Assembly: GCA_903874055.1 (NCBI GenBank)
Contig: CAIQQR010000010.1
Coordinates: 1-48,258, forward strand
DNA from: an uncultured Bacteroidota bacterium
GTDB taxonomy: Bacteria > Bacteroidota > Bacteroidia > Chitinophagales > Chitinophagaceae
Direction: 5' to 3'
Length of the DNA: 48,258 nucleotides
In this document: positions 2,488 through 11,536 of the stretch, in pieces
Numbering within the stretch: the stretch's first letter is position 1
Layout: each line of letters begins with the position of its first letter
Program-made: the position numbers and the translations under genes
Notes under the pieces: generated by a model
Database searches by the model: none
The model's input: the letters and a program-made list of their open reading frames with translations, nothing else
What the model was told of the DNA's origin: nothing

Positions 2488-3912
2488 TTACAATAATAAA
2501 GTGGTAGGGGTAGTGAATTCTGTTATACTCAATTTTCCATTTTCTTTGATAGCTGTAAAGCCTCCCTGAACATCAATCAAATGATCAAAGCCTCTTGCTT
2601 TTAAGATTGAAATGAAAATCATTGAACGATATCCACCAGCACAATGCACAAAATAAGTTTTGTTCTTATCTATCAAAGCCATGCTATCATTGATAAAATC
2701 TAAGGGTGCATTAATTGCCGACTTCACATGTTCGCTTTTATATTCCGATGCTTTTCGCACATCAATAATTGAAGTTTTAGGATCTTTCTCTTTTATTTCA
2801 GCAATTTCAGCAGCAGTAATAGATTTTATATGATCTACTTCCTTGCCTGCTTTTATCCATGCATCCATTCCGCCTTGTAAATATCCAATTGTAAAATCAT
2901 ACCCTACTCTAGCGAGTCTAGTAATAACTTCTGATTCCTTACCTTCATCTGTTACCAATAAAATTTGTTGTTTTATATCTGGAATCATAGCGCCTACCCA
3001 AGGTGCAAAGCTTCCATCAATTCCAATATTTATGGAATTGGGAATAAATGCTTTTGCAAATATTTGTGCCGATCTGGTATCTAAAATAAGGGCACTGGTT
3101 TCATTGGCTGCTGCCTCAAATGCATCAGGAGTTAAAGCATGCTGTCCGCGTTCCAATACCTTATCAATACTTTCGTAGCCTTGAATATTCATCATCACAT
3201 TTAAAGGAAAATATCCAGGAGGTGCCACCAATCCATCTAATACGGCTTCAATAAATTCAGCCTTTGTCATATTGGGCGCTAAAGCATAATTGGTTGCTTT
3301 TTGATGTCCTAAAGTATCTTGGGTTTCCTTACTCATTTTTTTACCGCATGCACTACCGGCACCATGAGCTGGATAAATAATAATGTCATCGGACAATGTC
3401 ATTATCTTATATCGCAAAGATTCGTATAAATGACCTGCTAAAATTTCCTGCGTTAATTCGGCCTTCACTTTCTGTGCTAAATCAGGACGGCCCACATCAC
3501 CAATAAATAAAGTATCTCCACTAAATAAAGCCACTTCTTTTCCTTGTTCATCCATTAATAAATAACAAGTACTTTCCATGGTATGACCTGGAGTATGAAT
3601 CACTTTAATTTTTGCTTTCCCTAATGTAAGAACTTCGCCATCTTTTGCAGCATAAAAATTAAATTCAGGTGCAGCAGTTGGGCCATATACAATTTTTGCT
3701 CCTGTTTTTTTCGCCAGGTCTAAATGTCCAGAAACAAAGTCGGCATGAAAATGTGTTTCTAAAACATATTTTATGACCGCCTTATCTGCAAAAGCCCTTT
3801 GGGTATATGCATCCACTTCTCTCAATGGATCAATAATGGCAACCTCACCCTCACTCATAATATAGTAGGCACCTTGTGCAAGACAACCCGTATATATTTG
3901 TTCAATCTTCAT
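2488..3912 (-). CDS. Persulfide dioxygenase-like MBL hydrolase fused to two rhodanese domains
   Basis: A 474-residue cytoplasmic protein. I start it at the ATG before KIEQIYTG because ETHE1-like proteins begin there; an upstream in-frame ATG at 3939 would add nine residues. The N-terminal metallo-beta-lactamase domain has metal ligands His54, His56, Asp58 (THFHAD), His110 (HTPGHT), Asp133 (SGDT) and His183 (PAHG). Two rhodanese domains follow. The first, about residues 270-360, has no active-site Cys (VTDEGKESE in the loop) and looks structural. The second carries HCAGGYRS with Cys424. ETHE1-type enzymes oxidise glutathione or low-molecular-weight persulfide to sulfite, and an active rhodanese can convert sulfite plus persulfide to thiosulfate. 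The divergent neighbour is a TauE-type exporter that could remove sulfite, so the pair reads as sulfide/persulfide detoxification. Confidence 0.9.
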   Translation of the reverse strand: MKIEQIYTGCLAQGAYYIMSEGEVAIIDPLREVDAYTQRAFADKAVIKYVLETHFHADFVSGHLDLAKKTGAKIVYGPTAAPEFNFYAAKDGEVLTLGKAKIKVIHTPGHTMESTCYLLMDEQGKEVALFSGDTLFIGDVGRPDLAQKVKAELTQEILAGHLYESLRYKIMTLSDDIIIYPAHGAGSACGKKMSKETQDTLGHQKATNYALAPNMTKAEFIEAVLDGLVAPPGYFPLNVMMNIQGYESIDKVLERGQHALTPDAFEAAANETSALILDTRSAQIFAKAFIPNSINIGIDGSFAPWVGAMIPDIKQQILLVTDEGKESEVITRLARVGYDFTIGYLQGGMDAWIKAGKEVDHIKSITAAEIAEIKEKDPKTSIIDVRKASEYKSEHVKSAINAPLDFINDSMALIDKNKTYFVHCAGGYRSMIFISILKARGFDHLIDVQGGFTAIKENGKLSITEFTTPTTLLL

Positions 3913-3948
3913 AGAATATTTATTTATTTTAATCCACAATTTCTACTA

Positions 3949-4010: not shown

Positions 4011-4061
4011 TAGTACATAAAATGTAAATGATTAACCCGAAGTTTGCATAAATATTTTAAA

Positions 4062-4847
4062 ATGGAGTGGGTGGGCTATATAGCAGCAATTTTAATTGGA
4101 ATTTCACTTGGCCTCATTGGTAGTGGTGGCTCCATTTTAACGGTCCCTGTATTAGTATACCTTTTTCATATTGACCCATTGCTTGCAACCACTTATTCAT
4201 TGTGTATTGTGGGCGTAAGTAGTATAGCAGGTGTAATTTCTCGATTAAGACAAAAATTGTTAGACTTAAAAGTCATACTTGTTTTTGGAGCACCTTCCAT
4301 CATTGGTGTTTTTATTTCGCGTAAATTTATTTTACATAATATTCCTGATCATTTTTCAATTGCATCAAATCCCATTAGCAAAGGCAATTTTATTATGTTG
4401 TTCTTTGCAACCCTAATGCTAGCTTCTGCATTTTCTATGATACTTGGTAAAAAACAAGAAAATGAAATTGAGCAAAAACCAATATATGGCGCAACACTAA
4501 TGATAGTTGGACTTGCAGAGGGAATGGTTACTGGTATTGTTGGTGCAGGTGGGGGATTTTTAATCATACCAGCACTTGTCATTTTAGGTAAACTTCCAAT
4601 GAAAAAAGCAATTGCATCTTCTTTGTTTATAATTACTATCAAGTCATTGGTAGGATTTAGTGGCGACTTAATGCATGTAAATGTTCAGTGGAATTTTTTA
4701 TTCATTATCATTGCATTGGCTACACTTGGAATTGTCACAGGTAATTATTTAAATAAAACAATTGACGGAGCTAAACTTAAAAAAGGTTTTGGATGGTTTG
4801 TTTTTTGTATGTCTCTGTTTATATTTTACAAGCAATTTTTCTTCTAA
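4062..4847 (+). CDS. Sulfite exporter TauE/SafE family permease
   Basis: An inner-membrane protein of 261 residues with about eight hydrophobic helices and the two-repeat layout of the TauE/SafE family. Both repeats show the Gly-rich motif: GLIGSGGSILTVPVLVYLF near the N-terminus and GIVGAGGGFLIIPALVIL in the second half. I chose the ATG at 4062; an in-frame TTG at 4044 would add six residues and is less likely. Family members export sulfite, sulfoacetate or related organosulfur anions. Its divergent partner is a persulfide dioxygenase, an enzyme that makes sulfite, which supports sulfite as substrate. It converges with the mutarotase gene, with only 5 nt between stop codons. Confidence 0.88.
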   Translation: MEWVGYIAAILIGISLGLIGSGGSILTVPVLVYLFHIDPLLATTYSLCIVGVSSIAGVISRLRQKLLDLKVILVFGAPSIIGVFISRKFILHNIPDHFSIASNPISKGNFIMLFFATLMLASAFSMILGKKQENEIEQKPIYGATLMIVGLAEGMVTGIVGAGGGFLIIPALVILGKLPMKKAIASSLFIITIKSLVGFSGDLMHVNVQWNFLFIIIALATLGIVTGNYLNKTIDGAKLKKGFGWFVFCMSLFIFYKQFFF

Positions 4848-4852
4848 CTCAT

Positions 4853-5188
4853 TTACAAAGAAAATATTTTTTGCATAAGCACCCACTTCTCACCCGGCTT
4901 TGCGATGGGTAATGCTTGCTGATATTCCCACATGGTATTTTCCCACTGTTGTACAATTTCATTTTTGGCATCCATGGCAGCTTTTTGCTCAAAATTAAAA
5001 TCTGCATCGGTTTCAATAATCATAAATAAACGATTCGAAATTCTATAAATTTCAAGTGATTTAATTCCGGAAGATTTAATAGAATCAATAATTTCGGGCC
5101 ATACAGATTGATGGTATTCATCATAAGCTGCAATCAATTGTGGGTCATCTTTTAAATCTAAGGCTAAACAATAACGCATACTATTCAT
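4853..5188 (-). CDS. rhaM: L-rhamnose mutarotase family protein
   Basis: A 111-residue cytoplasmic protein that matches the RhaM/DUF718 ferredoxin-like fold in length and motifs: MRYCLALDLKDDP at the N-terminus, YHQSVWPEI with the conserved His near residue 26, then IEIYRI-type strands and a C-terminal W-x-L-M-x-x-I-F. These enzymes interconvert alpha and beta anomers of rhamnose or related 6-deoxy sugars such as fucose. It follows a Gfo/Idh oxidoreductase gene by 8 nt and is probably the last gene of an S9 peptidase / oxidoreductase / mutarotase operon. No rhamnose isomerase or kinase is near, so the sugar is uncertain. The gene symbol reflects family membership only. Confidence 0.85.
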   Translation of the reverse strand: MNSMRYCLALDLKDDPQLIAAYDEYHQSVWPEIIDSIKSSGIKSLEIYRISNRLFMIIETDADFNFEQKAAMDAKNEIVQQWENTMWEYQQALPIAKPGEKWVLMQKIFSL

Positions 5189-5196
5189 TTTTCTTT

Positions 5197-6174
5197 TTAT
5201 AAATTATTACCATAGACAAAGGATTCCATTACATGCATTGAGCTTATGGCATCTTGAGCAGAGCATGGATTAGGCCCCTTATCCAAAAAATAATTTACTA
5301 TTTTTTCAATCATTGGTTGCTGAATATGAGCAGGTGGTTCAAAATGAATGACTTCCTTTTGTCCCTCTTTTACAATTATTAGATGCTGACCAAATACCTC
5401 AAATTGAATACTTCCTTTTTCTCCCTGAATAATAAATTCATCTTTTTCAATATCAGTAGCTGCTGCAAAGCACCAATCGCCAATAAATTCAATGTCATTT
5501 TGCAATTGCATTTTTCCTTTAACCGTATCTTCAACCTCATATAAGCCTGCTTTGTTGTTTGCAGTCCCTTTATAATTAAATGCTTCACCAAAAAAATAAA
5601 TGACCAAGTCTAATTGATGGGGTGCCAAATCATAAAACAAGCCACCACCCGCAGTTGCTTTGTTGACTCTCCAATTATTGATGTAATAAGAAGCGTTCGC
5701 AGCATTTTTTTGCATGTTTATTTTTACAGTATACACTTTGCCAATTTCATTTTGTTGGAGTAACTCCTTTACTTTTAAAAATAGGGGGAGTGCTCTTCTA
5801 TAATGTGCAATGACTAATTTTCCATCTAATTCGTTGGCAACTTTTTGCATATTTAAACATGCTGCAACAGTGGTGGCCATTGGCTTTTCTACATACACAA
5901 ATTTATTAGCCCTCAATGCCTCAATTGCATATTGTTCATGAACGTTTGGAGGTGTTGCAATATATACAGCATCTACTTCGGGATGTTGAATTAAATCAGC
6001 GGCATTATTAAAAGTATAAGGCACATTATGTCTTAATGCATAATCTTTTAGTAATACTTTGTCTCTTCGCATTACGGCCAATAGTCTGGAATTGGGTACT
6101 TTATTAAAGGCTGGTCCGCTCTTTACTTCAGTAACATTTCCACAACCAATTATACCCCATCTAATTTCTTGCAT
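5197..6174 (-). CDS. Gfo/Idh/MocA family oxidoreductase (cytoplasmic)
   Basis: A 325-residue NAD(P)-dependent sugar or inositol dehydrogenase-type protein without a signal peptide. The N-terminal Rossmann fold opens with WGIIGCGNVTEVKSGPAF. The family EKP motif appears as YVEKPMATT, where the Lys is catalytic, and DLAPHQLDLVIYFFG supplies the conserved His of the C-terminal domain. It sits between an S9 peptidase gene (10 nt upstream) and the mutarotase gene (8 nt downstream). Pairing with a mutarotase suggests a 6-deoxyhexose or related sugar as substrate, but the family is too broad to name one. It is distinct from the Tat-exported Gfo/Idh protein at 41443-42708. Confidence 0.9.
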   Translation of the reverse strand: MQEIRWGIIGCGNVTEVKSGPAFNKVPNSRLLAVMRRDKVLLKDYALRHNVPYTFNNAADLIQHPEVDAVYIATPPNVHEQYAIEALRANKFVYVEKPMATTVAACLNMQKVANELDGKLVIAHYRRALPLFLKVKELLQQNEIGKVYTVKINMQKNAANASYYINNWRVNKATAGGGLFYDLAPHQLDLVIYFFGEAFNYKGTANNKAGLYEVEDTVKGKMQLQNDIEFIGDWCFAAATDIEKDEFIIQGEKGSIQFEVFGQHLIIVKEGQKEVIHFEPPAHIQQPMIEKIVNYFLDKGPNPCSAQDAISSMHVMESFVYGNNL

Positions 6175-8261: not shown

Positions 8262-9605
8262 TTATTTAAATGTAAAGTGCAATGAAATTACATTTGAATT
8301 TAAATCTGTAGTTTGTACATAATGTCCAAATCTTAATTCTAAAGCAGATAAATAGGTATTATTAAATCCACCTGGAGGTGCGCTTCTTAATCCAACGCCT
8401 ACATAATTACTACTAAATGCCGATGAAGCATAGTTGCTAGTGTAGTAGGTATCTTTTGGATTACCAACCGCATCAACTTTGTGGCCATACAAAGGAGCAA
8501 AGTATTTAGTAGCCGTTTGTGTATAGTATCTATAAAATGGAGATACCGAAAAGAACGGCGTTATTTTATACGGCACTTCAATGCTTGCCGTGTGAGAAGT
8601 TAATCCCCAATCATCGGTATAATATCTGTAATAAGATCTAATAATAACATCATCTCCCATAAAATAATTAACCCTCAAGCCAATAGGCAACTTGGTTCTA
8701 GAAGAGGGTAGTTTTTCAATTCTTTCTAAATGATTTTCAAATATAACTCGGTGAAAAGGAAGTCCTAAATATCCATCCTGTTTTACCAAATCAAATAATA
8801 CAGCCATTTGTAGCGACTTATTAATTACCTGACTATAGGTTAAAGAAGTAGTATAGGTATTTCTTGGAGTAGTTGCAATTGAAGATTCGCCGCTACCACC
8901 TCCATAATAGGCAACACCCCCACCACCAGATTGGCTCGCATTGGTAGTAATTACCAATTGATCCAAGGGTGTAGTAATTGAGTTGGTTCCTGTTTTATAT
9001 TTAGTAGAATCGTCAGATGGATATATCAATGAAACTTGATCAAAATAAGCAGATACTTTGGCGCCAAACTCACCACCTGTTTTATTTTTATAACCAACAT
9101 GTCCATCCAATGCAAATGAAGTATAATTATATTCATGTGAATAATAAGTACCCAATCCAAATTCAGTTCCTTGATTTAAATTCTCAACAGTCCAATTAAG
9201 GGAAGGATACACTCTTGTGCCACCTGGATTAGATGCACCTGTTGGAGAAATATACTTTTGAGAAGCTGCAGTATGGTGATCAATTCCTAATCCTGCTGTA
9301 ATGGTATGCTTATTCCCAGTCTCGCCATATCCAACTAATTTTAATTCTAAGAAATTAGAAAAATCATTTAATTGCTCTGATCCTGGTAGAGTAATTGCAT
9401 TGGCGCCAACACCCAATATTGCGGTTCCACCACCTGTTACTGCCGAATGTGTTCCGTTTTGAGAATAGTAACTGGTAACTAAATTTATTTCTTCAATTTT
9501 TAATGGTCTTGATTGAAAAATATCTTGATACTTTTGAGCGATTTGAGAATAACCATGCAGAAACAATAAATACAATCCTATTAAGGTTAGCGATAATTTT
9601 TTCAT
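8262..9605 (-). CDS. DUF3570 outer-membrane beta-barrel protein, possible flavinylation substrate
   Basis: A 447-residue exported protein with a signal peptide ending at GYSQ and many alternating strands typical of an outer-membrane barrel. The DUF3570 signature is in the second half: DGYLGLPFHRVIF, then SSRTKLPIGLRVNYF, SYYRYYTDDWGLTSHT, and PFYRYYTQTATKYFAP. Residues 109-115 read D-H-H-T-A-A-S and residues 122-125 T-G-A-S. Both resemble the D-x-x-S/T-G/S/A-A-T/S site that ApbE enzymes modify with FMN in NqrC and RnfG, and I recall a similar D-x-x-S-S-A-S in proteobacterial DUF3570 proteins (unverified). It is the last gene of an operon with periplasmic thioredoxin, ApbE and DUF4266. The family call is strong; the modification is an inference. 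Confidence 0.88.
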   Translation of the reverse strand: MKKLSLTLIGLYLLFLHGYSQIAQKYQDIFQSRPLKIEEINLVTSYYSQNGTHSAVTGGGTAILGVGANAITLPGSEQLNDFSNFLELKLVGYGETGNKHTITAGLGIDHHTAASQKYISPTGASNPGGTRVYPSLNWTVENLNQGTEFGLGTYYSHEYNYTSFALDGHVGYKNKTGGEFGAKVSAYFDQVSLIYPSDDSTKYKTGTNSITTPLDQLVITTNASQSGGGGVAYYGGGSGESSIATTPRNTYTTSLTYSQVINKSLQMAVLFDLVKQDGYLGLPFHRVIFENHLERIEKLPSSRTKLPIGLRVNYFMGDDVIIRSYYRYYTDDWGLTSHTASIEVPYKITPFFSVSPFYRYYTQTATKYFAPLYGHKVDAVGNPKDTYYTSNYASSAFSSNYVGVGLRSAPPGGFNNTYLSALELRFGHYVQTTDLNSNVISLHFTFK

Positions 9606-9638
9606 TTAATGCGTATAACTATGAGTCAAATATTTTAA

Positions 9639-9860
9639 TTAATTACAACCACAACCTCCACCTGTCTTACCGCCATTTGCACCAGATGCCCCCTCTTTAT
9701 AAGATTGGAAATTCATTTCATTTTTTTCGACCTTTCTAGTTGACAAGGCCATTTCAGCATCATTCAATCTATTTTTTTGATACTCTTTTACCGTCTCACA
9801 TGAGCTTGCTAAAACAACCAATAGCAATAAAGAAAAGAATGCGTAATAATTTCGTTTCAT
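9639..9860 (-). CDS. DUF4266 lipoprotein with GGGCGCN tail
   Basis: A 73-residue lipoprotein. Residues 1-20 are a signal peptide and Cys21 (LASSC) is the predicted lipidation site. The short middle part is charged, and the C-terminus runs from YKEGASGANGG into a glycine-rich tail ending G-G-G-C-G-C-N. From memory, the same ending is typical of DUF4266 members in other phyla, so the two cysteines are likely functional: a redox dithiol, a metal site or an attachment point. EGASGAN also resembles the NqrC/RnfG site (D/E-x-x-S-G-A-T), but the acceptor Thr is replaced by Asn. It lies 10 nt after apbE and 33 nt before the DUF3570 gene. Biochemical function is unknown. Confidence 0.85.
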   Translation of the reverse strand: MKRNYYAFFSLLLLVVLASSCETVKEYQKNRLNDAEMALSTRKVEKNEMNFQSYKEGASGANGGKTGGGCGCN

Positions 9861-9870
9861 TTCATTTTTT

Positions 9871-10806
9871 TTAAGTAGTTAGTTTTATATTCTTTGTTGC
9901 ATATAAAGTATTGTTATCATCAATTACAATGGCCTCAATATCATTAATTTGATTAATCATATTTAGTCCGGCTTCAATACCCATGATCATTACCGGCGTT
10001 GCCATTGCATCGGCCACTTCGGCATTAGTGGAAACGATAGTAACACTTTTGATTCCAGTAACCGGCAATCCAGTTTTAGGATTAATCGTATGTGAATATT
10101 TTACGCCGTCAATCATGATATATTTTTCATAATTGCCCGAAGTAGCAACTGATAATCCACTTACGTTCATATAAGAAAAAACACTTGAAGCCATTTCAGG
10201 ATGCACAATTCCGATGGTCCACTTATTTCCATCTGGCATTAACCCCCAGGTGGTTAAATCTCCTGATGCATTAACTACCCCATTTTCCACACCGGCAGCG
10301 CGCATTACATTTTTTGCCTGCTCTGCTGCATAGCCCTTACCAATACCTCCAAAACCAATGCGCATCCCTTTTTGTTTTAAAAAAACAGTGGACGCTTCTT
10401 TATCAATAATGATATTCTTATAATTAATTAATCGCACACTTTGTTTTGCAATCTCTCTACTAGGCAAGCTTGTCATACTGGTATCAAAATTCCATAATGA
10501 CTTATCAACCGATCCATAACTTATATCAAATGCACCTTGCGTAATATTAGAAATTCTTAAAGCCCTCTCAATTAATAAAATAATTTCTTCAGAAACTTTT
10601 ACTGGCGAGATACCTGCATTTGTATTGATCAAATTAGTTTCACTATCCTCCGCATAGGTAGTTAAAAGCTTTTCAATTCTTTGAATTTCTTTAACGCCTA
10701 TTTCAATTTTTTCATTTGCCCATTGTTCATCATCACCCACTACCGTAATCTCAAAATGGTTACCCATTAAGTGCATTGATTTTTTATGTAGTAATAATGC
10801 AGACAT
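9871..10806 (-). CDS. apbE: FAD:protein FMN transferase (ApbE family), no visible signal peptide
   Basis: A 311-residue flavin transferase that moves FMN from FAD onto Thr or Ser of extracytoplasmic proteins. Motifs are intact: MGNHFEITV at residues 14-22, GGIGKGYAAEQA from 153, VNASGDL from 178, ATSGNYE from 221, HTINPKTGLPV from 239 and the metal-binding ADAMAT at 265-270. The protein starts directly with the catalytic core and lacks the lipoprotein or Sec signal usual in this family. An upstream extension is unlikely because the thioredoxin stop codon is 1 nt before the ATG. Either the export route is unusual or the enzyme works in the cytoplasm. Its substrate candidates are the two downstream genes; no FMN-bind, NqrC or RnfG protein lies in the window. 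Confidence 0.92.
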   Translation of the reverse strand: MSALLLHKKSMHLMGNHFEITVVGDDEQWANEKIEIGVKEIQRIEKLLTTYAEDSETNLINTNAGISPVKVSEEIILLIERALRISNITQGAFDISYGSVDKSLWNFDTSMTSLPSREIAKQSVRLINYKNIIIDKEASTVFLKQKGMRIGFGGIGKGYAAEQAKNVMRAAGVENGVVNASGDLTTWGLMPDGNKWTIGIVHPEMASSVFSYMNVSGLSVATSGNYEKYIMIDGVKYSHTINPKTGLPVTGIKSVTIVSTNAEVADAMATPVMIMGIEAGLNMINQINDIEAIVIDDNNTLYATKNIKLTT

Positions 10807-10807
10807 A

Positions 10808-11254
10808 TTATTGATGATCTTGAATAGTTTGTTGTAGGTCAGCTATGAACTCGATTGGCGATGCGGGGAATCCCTCCCAACTTTTTACCACTTTACCATT
10901 TTGATCTACCAACACAGTTAATGGAAATACCCCTTTATCATTATATTTATCGGCTAAGTTGTCATTTAATTTTTGTTGAGCAGCTGGTAATTGATTTTTT
11001 TTAGCTCTCGGGAAATCTGCATTTAATAATACCAACTTTTCATTCGCCACTTTTGCAAAATCAGTCATCACAAAAACTTCTTTGTGCAATCTTATACATG
11101 GCCCACACCAATCAGAACCAGAAAAATTAACTAATATAAATTTATGTTCCTTTTGTGCTTTTTGTAACGCCTCATTATAATTATGTCCCCATTCCGGAGT
11201 AGGCGACATAAACGCAGATGAAATAATTAACAGTAAGGCAATTGCTATTCTCAT
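10808..11254 (-). CDS. Periplasmic thioredoxin-family protein (CGPC)
   Basis: A 148-residue exported thioredoxin-fold protein. Residues 1-17 form a short hydrophobic signal. The active site is WCGPC with Cys50 and Cys53, and the cis-Pro loop is Pro111 in GVFPLTVLVD. Length and the SGSDWCGPC context fit the thioredoxin_7 / DUF255-like group of periplasmic reductases. It is the first gene of the operon and abuts apbE with a 1-nt gap, so it probably keeps a cysteine substrate of this operon reduced. The obvious candidate is the Cys-Gly-Cys tail of the DUF4266 lipoprotein. That partnership is inferred from gene order. Confidence 0.9.
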   Translation of the reverse strand: MRIAIALLLIISSAFMSPTPEWGHNYNEALQKAQKEHKFILVNFSGSDWCGPCIRLHKEVFVMTDFAKVANEKLVLLNADFPRAKKNQLPAAQQKLNDNLADKYNDKGVFPLTVLVDQNGKVVKSWEGFPASPIEFIADLQQTIQDHQ

Positions 11255-11430: not shown

Positions 11431-11465
11431 GTCTTAACGATTGCTTGCCTATGTATATGATCTAG

Positions 11466-11536
11466 CTGTCATAGATGGGATCGAACCATCGTTGAGGGTT
11501 TTGCTGACCCCTGCCTCTCCACTCGGCCACATGACA
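11466..11536 (-). tRNA. tRNA-Cys(GCA)-like gene, atypical, possibly non-coding or decayed
   Basis: A cloverleaf folds fully on the minus strand: acceptor TGTCATG / TATGACA (one G-U pair), D-arm GCC / GGC around GAGTGGAGA, anticodon arm GGGGT / ACCCT around CAGCAAA, four-base variable loop, and T-arm GATGG / CCATC around TTCGATC. The anticodon by position is GCA (Cys), and the layout resembles tRNA-Cys. However, base 33 is A instead of the invariant U, base pair 1-72 is U-A, the discriminator is G instead of the U73 needed by CysRS, and no CCA is encoded. It is therefore unlikely to be the ordinary tRNA-Cys. It may be a specialised tRNA-like RNA or a decaying copy. Confidence 0.6.

Follow-up and report, generated by a model that had tools for sequence, protein, structure and literature searches.

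A DUF3570 protein of Chlorobium luteolum is flavinylated by ApbE at two [S/T]GA[S/T] motifs, according to the accessible part of the paper by Meheust et al. (2021, PMC8238504), which describes the gene set and proposes a redox system in which DUF3570 is joined by a thioredoxin that is exported and a lipoprotein with a CxC motif. The same source counts 316 clusters of this gene set without an adjacent DsbD. Here we examine a related operon at positions 8262 to 11254 (minus strand) of a contig from an uncultured Chitinophagaceae bacterium (Bacteroidota; CAIQQR010000010.1); by 'the window' we mean the whole stretch of DNA analysed, 48,258 nucleotides long. Like the system described in the accessible part of PMC8238504, this operon combines ApbE, DUF3570, a PF13899 thioredoxin and a PF14086 DUF4266 protein with a CxC tail; as in the 316 clusters, no DsbD is adjacent. 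It differs in its gene order (thioredoxin-ApbE-DUF4266-DUF3570), in its first putative flavinylation site, which reads TAAS rather than [S/T]GA[S/T], and in an ApbE devoid of signal peptide. By analogy with the homologue, for which flavinylation is known, we consider it probable that this is a DUF3570-type flavinylation operon in which flavin mononucleotide (FMN) would be loaded in the cytosol onto a barrel carrying it on the outer side and fed by a thiol electron chain.

The coordinates of the open reading frames bear out the initial annotation, which had described four adjacent minus-strand genes separated by 1 to 33 nucleotides: a thioredoxin-like gene (148 amino acids, 10808 to 11254), the ApbE gene, encoding an FAD:protein FMN transferase (311 amino acids, 9871 to 10806), a gene for a small DUF4266 lipoprotein (73 amino acids, 9639 to 9860) and the DUF3570 gene (447 amino acids, 8262 to 9605), with gaps of 1, 10 and 33 nucleotides. 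Each protein scores above its Pfam cut-off (E-values 5.4e-12 for Thioredoxin_7, 5.7e-79 for ApbE, 1.3e-18 for DUF4266 and 1.2e-26 for DUF3570, the latter with 93.9 bits vs a cut-off of 25), the thioredoxin through Thioredoxin_7, Thioredoxin_2 and DsbH.

Two candidate flavinylation sites occur in the DUF3570 protein, at the residues given by the initial annotation: site 1, D109-H-H-T-A-A-S115 (9261 to 9281, minus strand), and site 2, T122-G-A-S125 (9231 to 9242, minus strand). Site 2 matches the motif given in the accessible part of PMC8238504, while T112-A-A-S115 of site 1, with Ala for Gly, matches only the wider pattern [ST][GSA]A[ST]. We compared 110 DUF3570 proteins, namely that of the window, 19 relatives and those of 80 stretches chosen among the matches listed. 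Half of them (55) come from a family, f18, which we take to be Chlorobiaceae. Site 1 in its wider form is present in 108 of the 110, so that the motif is conserved among DUF3570 proteins, and both exceptions have Ala at the first position. In the 130-residue N-terminal region the wider pattern occurs 1.96 times per protein vs 0.084 in shuffles of these 110 sequences, and the strict form D..[ST][GSA]A[ST] 1.09 times vs 0.014. The aspartate that the initial annotation singled out is common without being universal: position 109 holds Asp in 94 proteins and Ser in 14, and is gapped in the remaining two. Ala114 is invariant within site 1 and ranks 19th in conservation among the 414 mature positions, followed by Asp109 (36th), Ser115 (47th) and Thr112 (106th). 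Site 2 ranks only between 128th and 310th because its place moves between proteins. Site 1 is accompanied by a downstream site in 75 proteins and by an upstream site, in loop 1, in 20, and six proteins have three sites; exactly two motifs are found in the N-terminal region of 95 of the 110. Two sites are thus usual, while the position of the second varies between loops. Locus L093, which we take to be the C. luteolum pair, has the upstream site and site 1. The D-x-x-S-S-A-S form that the initial annotation gave for proteobacterial relatives did not hold up in the single one we saw, from Vibrio, which reads DTVSGAS.

Comparing proteins with and without a neighbouring apbE, as had been suggested, is less informative. 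Site 1 is kept in 79 of the 81 proteins with ApbE beside them (same strand, no more than 2.5 kb away) and in all 29 others; no loss of the motif was seen where ApbE is not adjacent, and the contrast cannot show whether the motif depends on ApbE, because some of the 29 loci are truncated at a contig or stretch end and almost every one of the genomes concerned has an ApbE at another place. Across genomes, ApbE was found in 114 of the 118 that have DUF3570 vs 146 of 277 without it (Fisher 1e-20, not corrected for relatedness).

Is there another protein that this ApbE could modify? It is the only ApbE match in its genome (99.25% complete, 131 contigs), and its best match of solved structure is 7esa, 'FAD:protein FMN transferase' (9.3e-47). 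Profile searches of this genome found no match to FMN_bind, NQR2/RnfD or DUF2271, in agreement with the initial annotation, which had noted the absence of FMN-bind-type proteins; DUF3570 is therefore the only known substrate type, among those tested, that is left for this enzyme. The same holds more widely: among 71 DUF3570 genomes, no FMN_bind, NQR2/RnfD or DUF2271 match was found in any of the 29 where ApbE is single or missing, and FMN_bind is found in 14 of the 42 with more than one ApbE (vs 0 of 29; Fisher 4e-4). The enzyme could instead modify some cytosolic protein, with DUF3570 merely an operon neighbour; the missing signal peptide described below would suit this explanation, and a cytosolic ApbE of Klebsiella has a soluble fumarate reductase as substrate (PMC12052999, accessible part). 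We nevertheless find it highly improbable, given the absence of the three substrate types from the genome, motifs some 20 times commoner in DUF3570 than in shuffles, and a homologous pair, that of C. luteolum, shown to flavinylate (PMC8238504, accessible part). The ApbE of this very pair is without signal as well, if we are right in recognizing it at L093. As a separate observation, genome G181 (97% complete; locus L120) has no ApbE match, and its DUF3570 keeps both motifs.

The best-studied ApbEs are exported enzymes. The ApbE of the window starts one base after the thioredoxin stop, and its open frame reaches 12 codons further upstream with no signal-like stretch; neither a signal peptide nor a lipobox, either of which would mark an exported ApbE, is found across the whole frame. 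We then scored the 80 ApbEs lying on the same strand within 7.5 kb of a DUF3570 gene, hereafter operon ApbEs, with a rule that looks for an 8-residue stretch containing no D, E, K, R, N, Q or H and having a mean hydropathy of at least 2.0, at most 22 residues after an ATG, GTG or TTG located no more than 60 codons before the domain. The rule finds a signal in none of the 19 ApbEs of the window's clade (the window with L003-L021, labelled Bacteroidetes, Chitinophagaceae, Chitinophaga, Mucilaginibacter and Sphingobacteriales), in 18 of 32 from other Bacteroidota, and in one, doubtful, of 29 from f18 (L124). By eye, L066 (1.91, a near twin of L080) also has a signal peptide, which gives 19 operon ApbEs with a signal, 59 without and two special cases (L124 and L076). 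The same kind of rule, scanning the first 60 residues (40 for DUF4266), detects signals in the partner proteins of these operons: 103 of 110 DUF3570, 83 of 90 DUF4266 and 75 of 79 thioredoxins. It also finds one in all of 20 non-operon ApbEs, hand-picked among the matches listed and all from DUF3570 genomes. The operon ApbE was examined for 16 of these 20: in nine it has no signal of its own (G075, G021, G057, G343, G316, G253, G249, G371 and G238), and in seven it has one too. Outside these groups, a Vibrio replicon filed as a plasmid (1.85 Mb) has thioredoxin, DUF4266, DUF3570, ApbE and DsbD in a row, where ApbE, found by profile, is without signal and the other genes were named by reading the open frames.

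Because the ApbE of the window and most operon ApbEs have no signal while the sampled non-operon ApbEs do, FMN is probably coupled to DUF3570 inside the cell, ahead of its export from the cytosol. In a tree of 101 ApbEs, 40 of them with signal (L066 set by hand as bearing one, L124 and L076 as having none of their own; truncated L111 and both L133 frames left out), the signal label requires two changes, and the starred branches force two. The enzymes without signal fall at two distant places, one comprising f18 with Vibrio and the other the Bacteroidota clade around the window's; the tree is quick and unrooted, and the Vibrio row forms a long branch whose placement is unsure. In E. coli, DUF3570 was flavinylated even with the bulk of it in the insoluble pellet, from constructs apparently without signal peptides (PMC8238504, accessible part), so a folded barrel seems unneeded for the reaction. 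In lineages whose operon ApbE bears a signal, flavinylation would be periplasmic. Such are the terms in which the location proposed initially can be kept: an FMN-bearing outer-membrane barrel is supported, and the modification step itself is probably not periplasmic.

Could the same barrel be flavinylated in the periplasm after all, by an ApbE exported piggy-back, through a non-classical route or as a readthrough fusion to thioredoxin? Several facts lean that way: the signals found by rule in more than half of the operon ApbEs from other Bacteroidota (18 of 32), the position of the ApbE start, -1 to +2 nucleotides from the thioredoxin stop in 16 of 18 loci of the window's clade, and locus L076, where a single open reading frame (4060 to 5430, plus strand) encodes a signal, a thioredoxin and an ApbE, a natural fusion. 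However, the phase from thioredoxin to ApbE is 0 in two of the 18 loci, 1 in four and 2 in 12, and since the spacing falls in all three phases a hidden fusion is disfavoured; no conserved frameshift or readthrough could produce one. We thus rejected programmed fusion as a general mechanism, L076 being a true fusion. In L007 and L012, moreover, the open frames begin at an ATG with no room for a signal, and the sampled non-operon ApbEs, all 20 of them, have clear ones. Periplasmic flavinylation by an ApbE exported in these ways thus appears rather unlikely here. As a side observation, the genome of L076, which belongs to the window's family, has two further DUF3570 operons with a separate, signal-less ApbE (L072 and L081). 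Cysteine content was also tried as a proxy for the compartment and was abandoned, as counts were mixed.

The DUF3570 protein has a signal peptide, an even number of strands and a barrel fold, as expected of an outer-membrane beta-barrel. An AlphaFold2 model built from the window protein and 19 relatives (predicted local distance difference test, pLDDT, 74; predicted template modelling score 0.68) has 16 strands once two broken strands are joined: 33-51, 77-93, 99-111, 130-142, 147-158, 161-173, 179-192, 245-260, 265-278, 302-316, 320-331, 336-349, 352-365, 395-408, 419-431 and 435-446. Foldseek retrieved OmpG and other porins (best E 2.7e-9, template modelling scores of about 0.3-0.4 by query length), a generic barrel result, and a comparison to PDB sequences gave four chance-level matches (E 0.19-0.76). 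Such barrels usually have both termini in the periplasm, which would make the loops after odd strands extracellular; most of these are also the long ones. In the model, the loop that follows strand 3 carries both site 1 and site 2, and the upstream site of f18 would fall in the one that follows strand 1, so from strand order all the predicted sites would be on the outer side of the barrel.

These generic matches would equally suit an ordinary porin or transporter in which D-x-x-T-x-A-S is structural and this lineage has no flavin, an explanation also compatible with a site 1 that departs from the published [S/T]GA[S/T]. But TSAS, SSAS and TAAS are the usual forms of site 1 in Bacteroidota outside f18, nearly always with ApbE adjacent, and a flavin-free barrel would leave the one ApbE of the genome without a known substrate, which makes a plain porin very improbable.

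In the proposed system the partner proteins would supply the electrons. The thioredoxin of the window has an N-terminal signal peptide and a WCGPC motif, and is of the Thioredoxin_7 or DsbH-like type (NCBIfam DsbH at 3.8e-23, which is below the curated cut-off of that model); its nearest solved structure is 2ju5, 'Thioredoxin Disulfide Isomerase' (2.6e-14). The DUF4266 protein, which had no match among PDB sequences, reads by eye as a lipoprotein (lipobox LASSC) ending in GGGCGCN, and all 90 DUF4266 sequences inspected by eye have GGCGC at or close to the C-terminus, in most of them as GGGCGCN, after a conserved [KR]E[GA] and a glycine-rich stretch. To judge from sequence, this suggests a constraint beyond the needs of a bare CxC redox tail. 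Conservation of the glycine-rich C-terminus (in the gene at 9639-9695 of the window, minus strand) is strong and extends from the Bacteroidota as far as Vibrio. DUF4266 might itself be the substrate of ApbE, or a second one, through the E-G-A-S preceding its CxC tail, as K-E-G-A-S-G in the window resembles [S/T]GA[S/T]; however, the serine is not conserved, its place being taken, by eye, by Ala, Val, Gly, Ile, Glu or Lys in others of the 90 sequences. We rejected this candidate as scarcely credible. A single DsbD, an open reading frame of 655 amino acids, is present in the window's genome, on a contig other than that of the operon. Many f18 loci have, 3' of ApbE, a gene of 620-670 amino acids with a thioredoxin domain, which we take to be DsbD from its size and domain.

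Returning to a cytosolic loading of the barrel, the following course of events may be envisaged. The signal-less ApbE would modify the DUF3570 precursor in the cytosol, drawing on the cytosolic pool of flavin adenine dinucleotide (FAD), before or during Sec export; the unfolded FMN-bearing chain would then be exported and fold into an outer-membrane barrel of 16 strands. Both FMNs would sit in an extracellular-side loop, above the half of the barrel where conserved Arg, Tyr, His and Asp are located. Electrons could pass from the cytosol through DsbD, the exported DsbH-like thioredoxin and the CxC tail of DUF4266 to the FMN pair, which may hand them to a surface acceptor, be it iron, sulfur or some other oxidant. 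If a large branch of ApbE does work in the cytosol on a protein bound for the outer membrane, the Sec and BAM machineries let through a polypeptide with a bulky redox cofactor bonded to it, and the reaction requires no exported FAD.

Several points weigh against this interpretation. The case for the window's DUF3570 is one of analogy, resting on the flavin of a homologue rather than on one seen on the protein itself. With both FMNs outside, a periplasmic dithiol would still need a route to reach them. The signals come from a home-made hydropathy rule and not from SignalP. Periplasmic flavinylation must also work, since 19 of the 80 operon ApbEs bear a signal peptide and the ApbE of L076 is fused to an exported thioredoxin. 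The median number of cysteines is four in f18, zero in the window's clade and two in ApbEs with a signal. Site 1 stands alone in seven of the 110 DUF3570 proteins, and two have no site by the strict pattern. Four of the 118 DUF3570 genomes, all f18 drafts, have no ApbE match (G181, G213, G276 and G362). In the barrel model, the loop holding the sites (115-128) has a pLDDT below 50, and it is the order of the strands rather than coordinates that places it on the outer side. The 33 strand residues among the 40 most conserved positions lie nearer the outer end than other strand residues (mean 0.64 vs 0.48, p 0.006), which speaks for the model, but this lean is gone or small when loops are counted (28 of 40 vs 265 of 414 positions). 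What the initial annotation held at its core, a DUF3570 barrel to which the adjacent ApbE would bind FMN covalently, partnered by the CxC lipoprotein and the thioredoxin, is supported: the flavinylation was shown biochemically for the homologue, and the whole was proposed as a system (PMC8238504, accessible part).

The neighbourhood of the operon in f18 bears on its function. In several f18 loci the genes ahead of it encode an octaheme cytochrome c (about 871 amino acids) and a monohaem lipoprotein, in most cases together with a cupredoxin-like protein; in L127 (910-6626), Rieske, ferredoxin and cytochrome b genes come before this set. Of the 41 f18 genomes searched, 24 have the octaheme gene, and in at least 13 of these it is no more than about 5 kb away from one of the DUF3570 matches listed; the distance is 14 kb in G010, and several other f18 genomes have the two on different contigs. 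In L087, from family f16, the thioredoxin comes right after genes for an 11-haem protein, a monohaem lipoprotein and, at the end of the stretch, a similar tetrahaem fragment. This company favours a role as a respiratory electron outlet; no genes of these kinds adjoin the operon of the window. The loci in which such neighbours were noted near the DUF3570 operon include L127, L089, L092 and L131, with a related set in L087. DUF3570 is multiplied in f18 (noted at L091, L092, L098, L105 and L106): a genome may have as many as nine Pfam matches, and L091 has four copies within 18 kb. Several copies have neither ApbE nor DUF4266 in the stretch and still keep the motif.

Other features of the window are more local. 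The common terminator of the initial annotation corresponds to a terminator-like hairpin 3' of DUF3570 (8243 to 8210, minus strand), which is indeed visible and is weak evidence, as the regional scan gave two sites vs 1.7 expected in shuffles. A scan of the window with Rfam returned nothing reaching the gathering threshold. The sole tRNA gene found in the window, tRNA-Cys (11465-11536, minus strand), is directly upstream of the operon. A metallo-beta-lactamase/rhodanese protein (2488-3939, minus strand) and a TauE/SafE exporter (4044-4847, plus strand) are near the operon in 14 and 15, respectively, of the 20 loci of the window's clade, which may reflect simple synteny of relatives or a link to sulfur.

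How does this operon stand among known systems? The kind of system was already published in 2021, and what is added here is the ApbE without signal. Among 5.39 million open papers searched, DUF3570 and DUF4266 are named only in PMC8238504, which is also alone in combining ApbE, DsbD and flavinylation, and our search returned nothing joining ApbE, flavinylated, Sec and 'outer membrane protein'. The main text of PMC8238504 does not contain 'cytosolic ApbE', 'intracellular' or 'barrel', and we found no signal-less ApbE in the part accessible. The cytosolic ApbE of Klebsiella pneumoniae offers a precedent for the compartment, as it is likewise without signal peptide; according to the accessible part of PMC12052999, it acts on a soluble fumarate reductase, and cytosolic ApbEs there modify fumarate reductases retained in the cell, whereas the substrate here would be an exported outer-membrane protein.

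The PepSY-TM/DUF2271/ApbE system, which resembles ours in associating ApbE with a substrate other than FMN_bind, occurs as a second system in one genome that has a DUF3570 operon too (L155 and L079, both from G021). It differs by an ApbE with signal peptide (L136), a small periplasmic substrate and an electron entry through PepSY-TM with its flavodoxin-reductase part. In L155, scanned with Pfam, the second, signal-bearing ApbE is next to PepSY-TM and DUF2271, and L156-L158 look like it by sequence. Two flavinylation systems would then be working in two compartments of one cell in G021.

In porin-cytochrome conduits, of which MtrCAB is one, a barrel serves as the passage for electrons across the outer membrane. 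The function proposed here is alike, and multihaem cytochromes adjoin the operon in some f18 genomes and in L087; unlike these conduits, the operon of the window would use covalent FMN in place of haem and a thiol-disulfide donor, and includes no cytochrome. Tentatively, and with rather more reserve than for the flavinylation operon as such, we suggest that two FMNs loaded in the cytosol by the signal-less ApbE on unfolded DUF3570, which then passes SecYEG and BAM to display the pair on the outer side, could form a non-haem electron outlet driven by thiols (DsbD, thioredoxin and the CxC of DUF4266), a counterpart of the porin-cytochrome conduits. The near-constant pair of sites, the mobile second site and the predicted outer-side position give rise to predictions for such a haem-free electron exit, covering both the Bacteroidota of the window and green sulfur bacteria. 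Three features deserve follow-up: the lack of an export signal on ApbE, the conserved pair of sites with its predicted outer-side position, and the cytochrome genes near the operon in f18.

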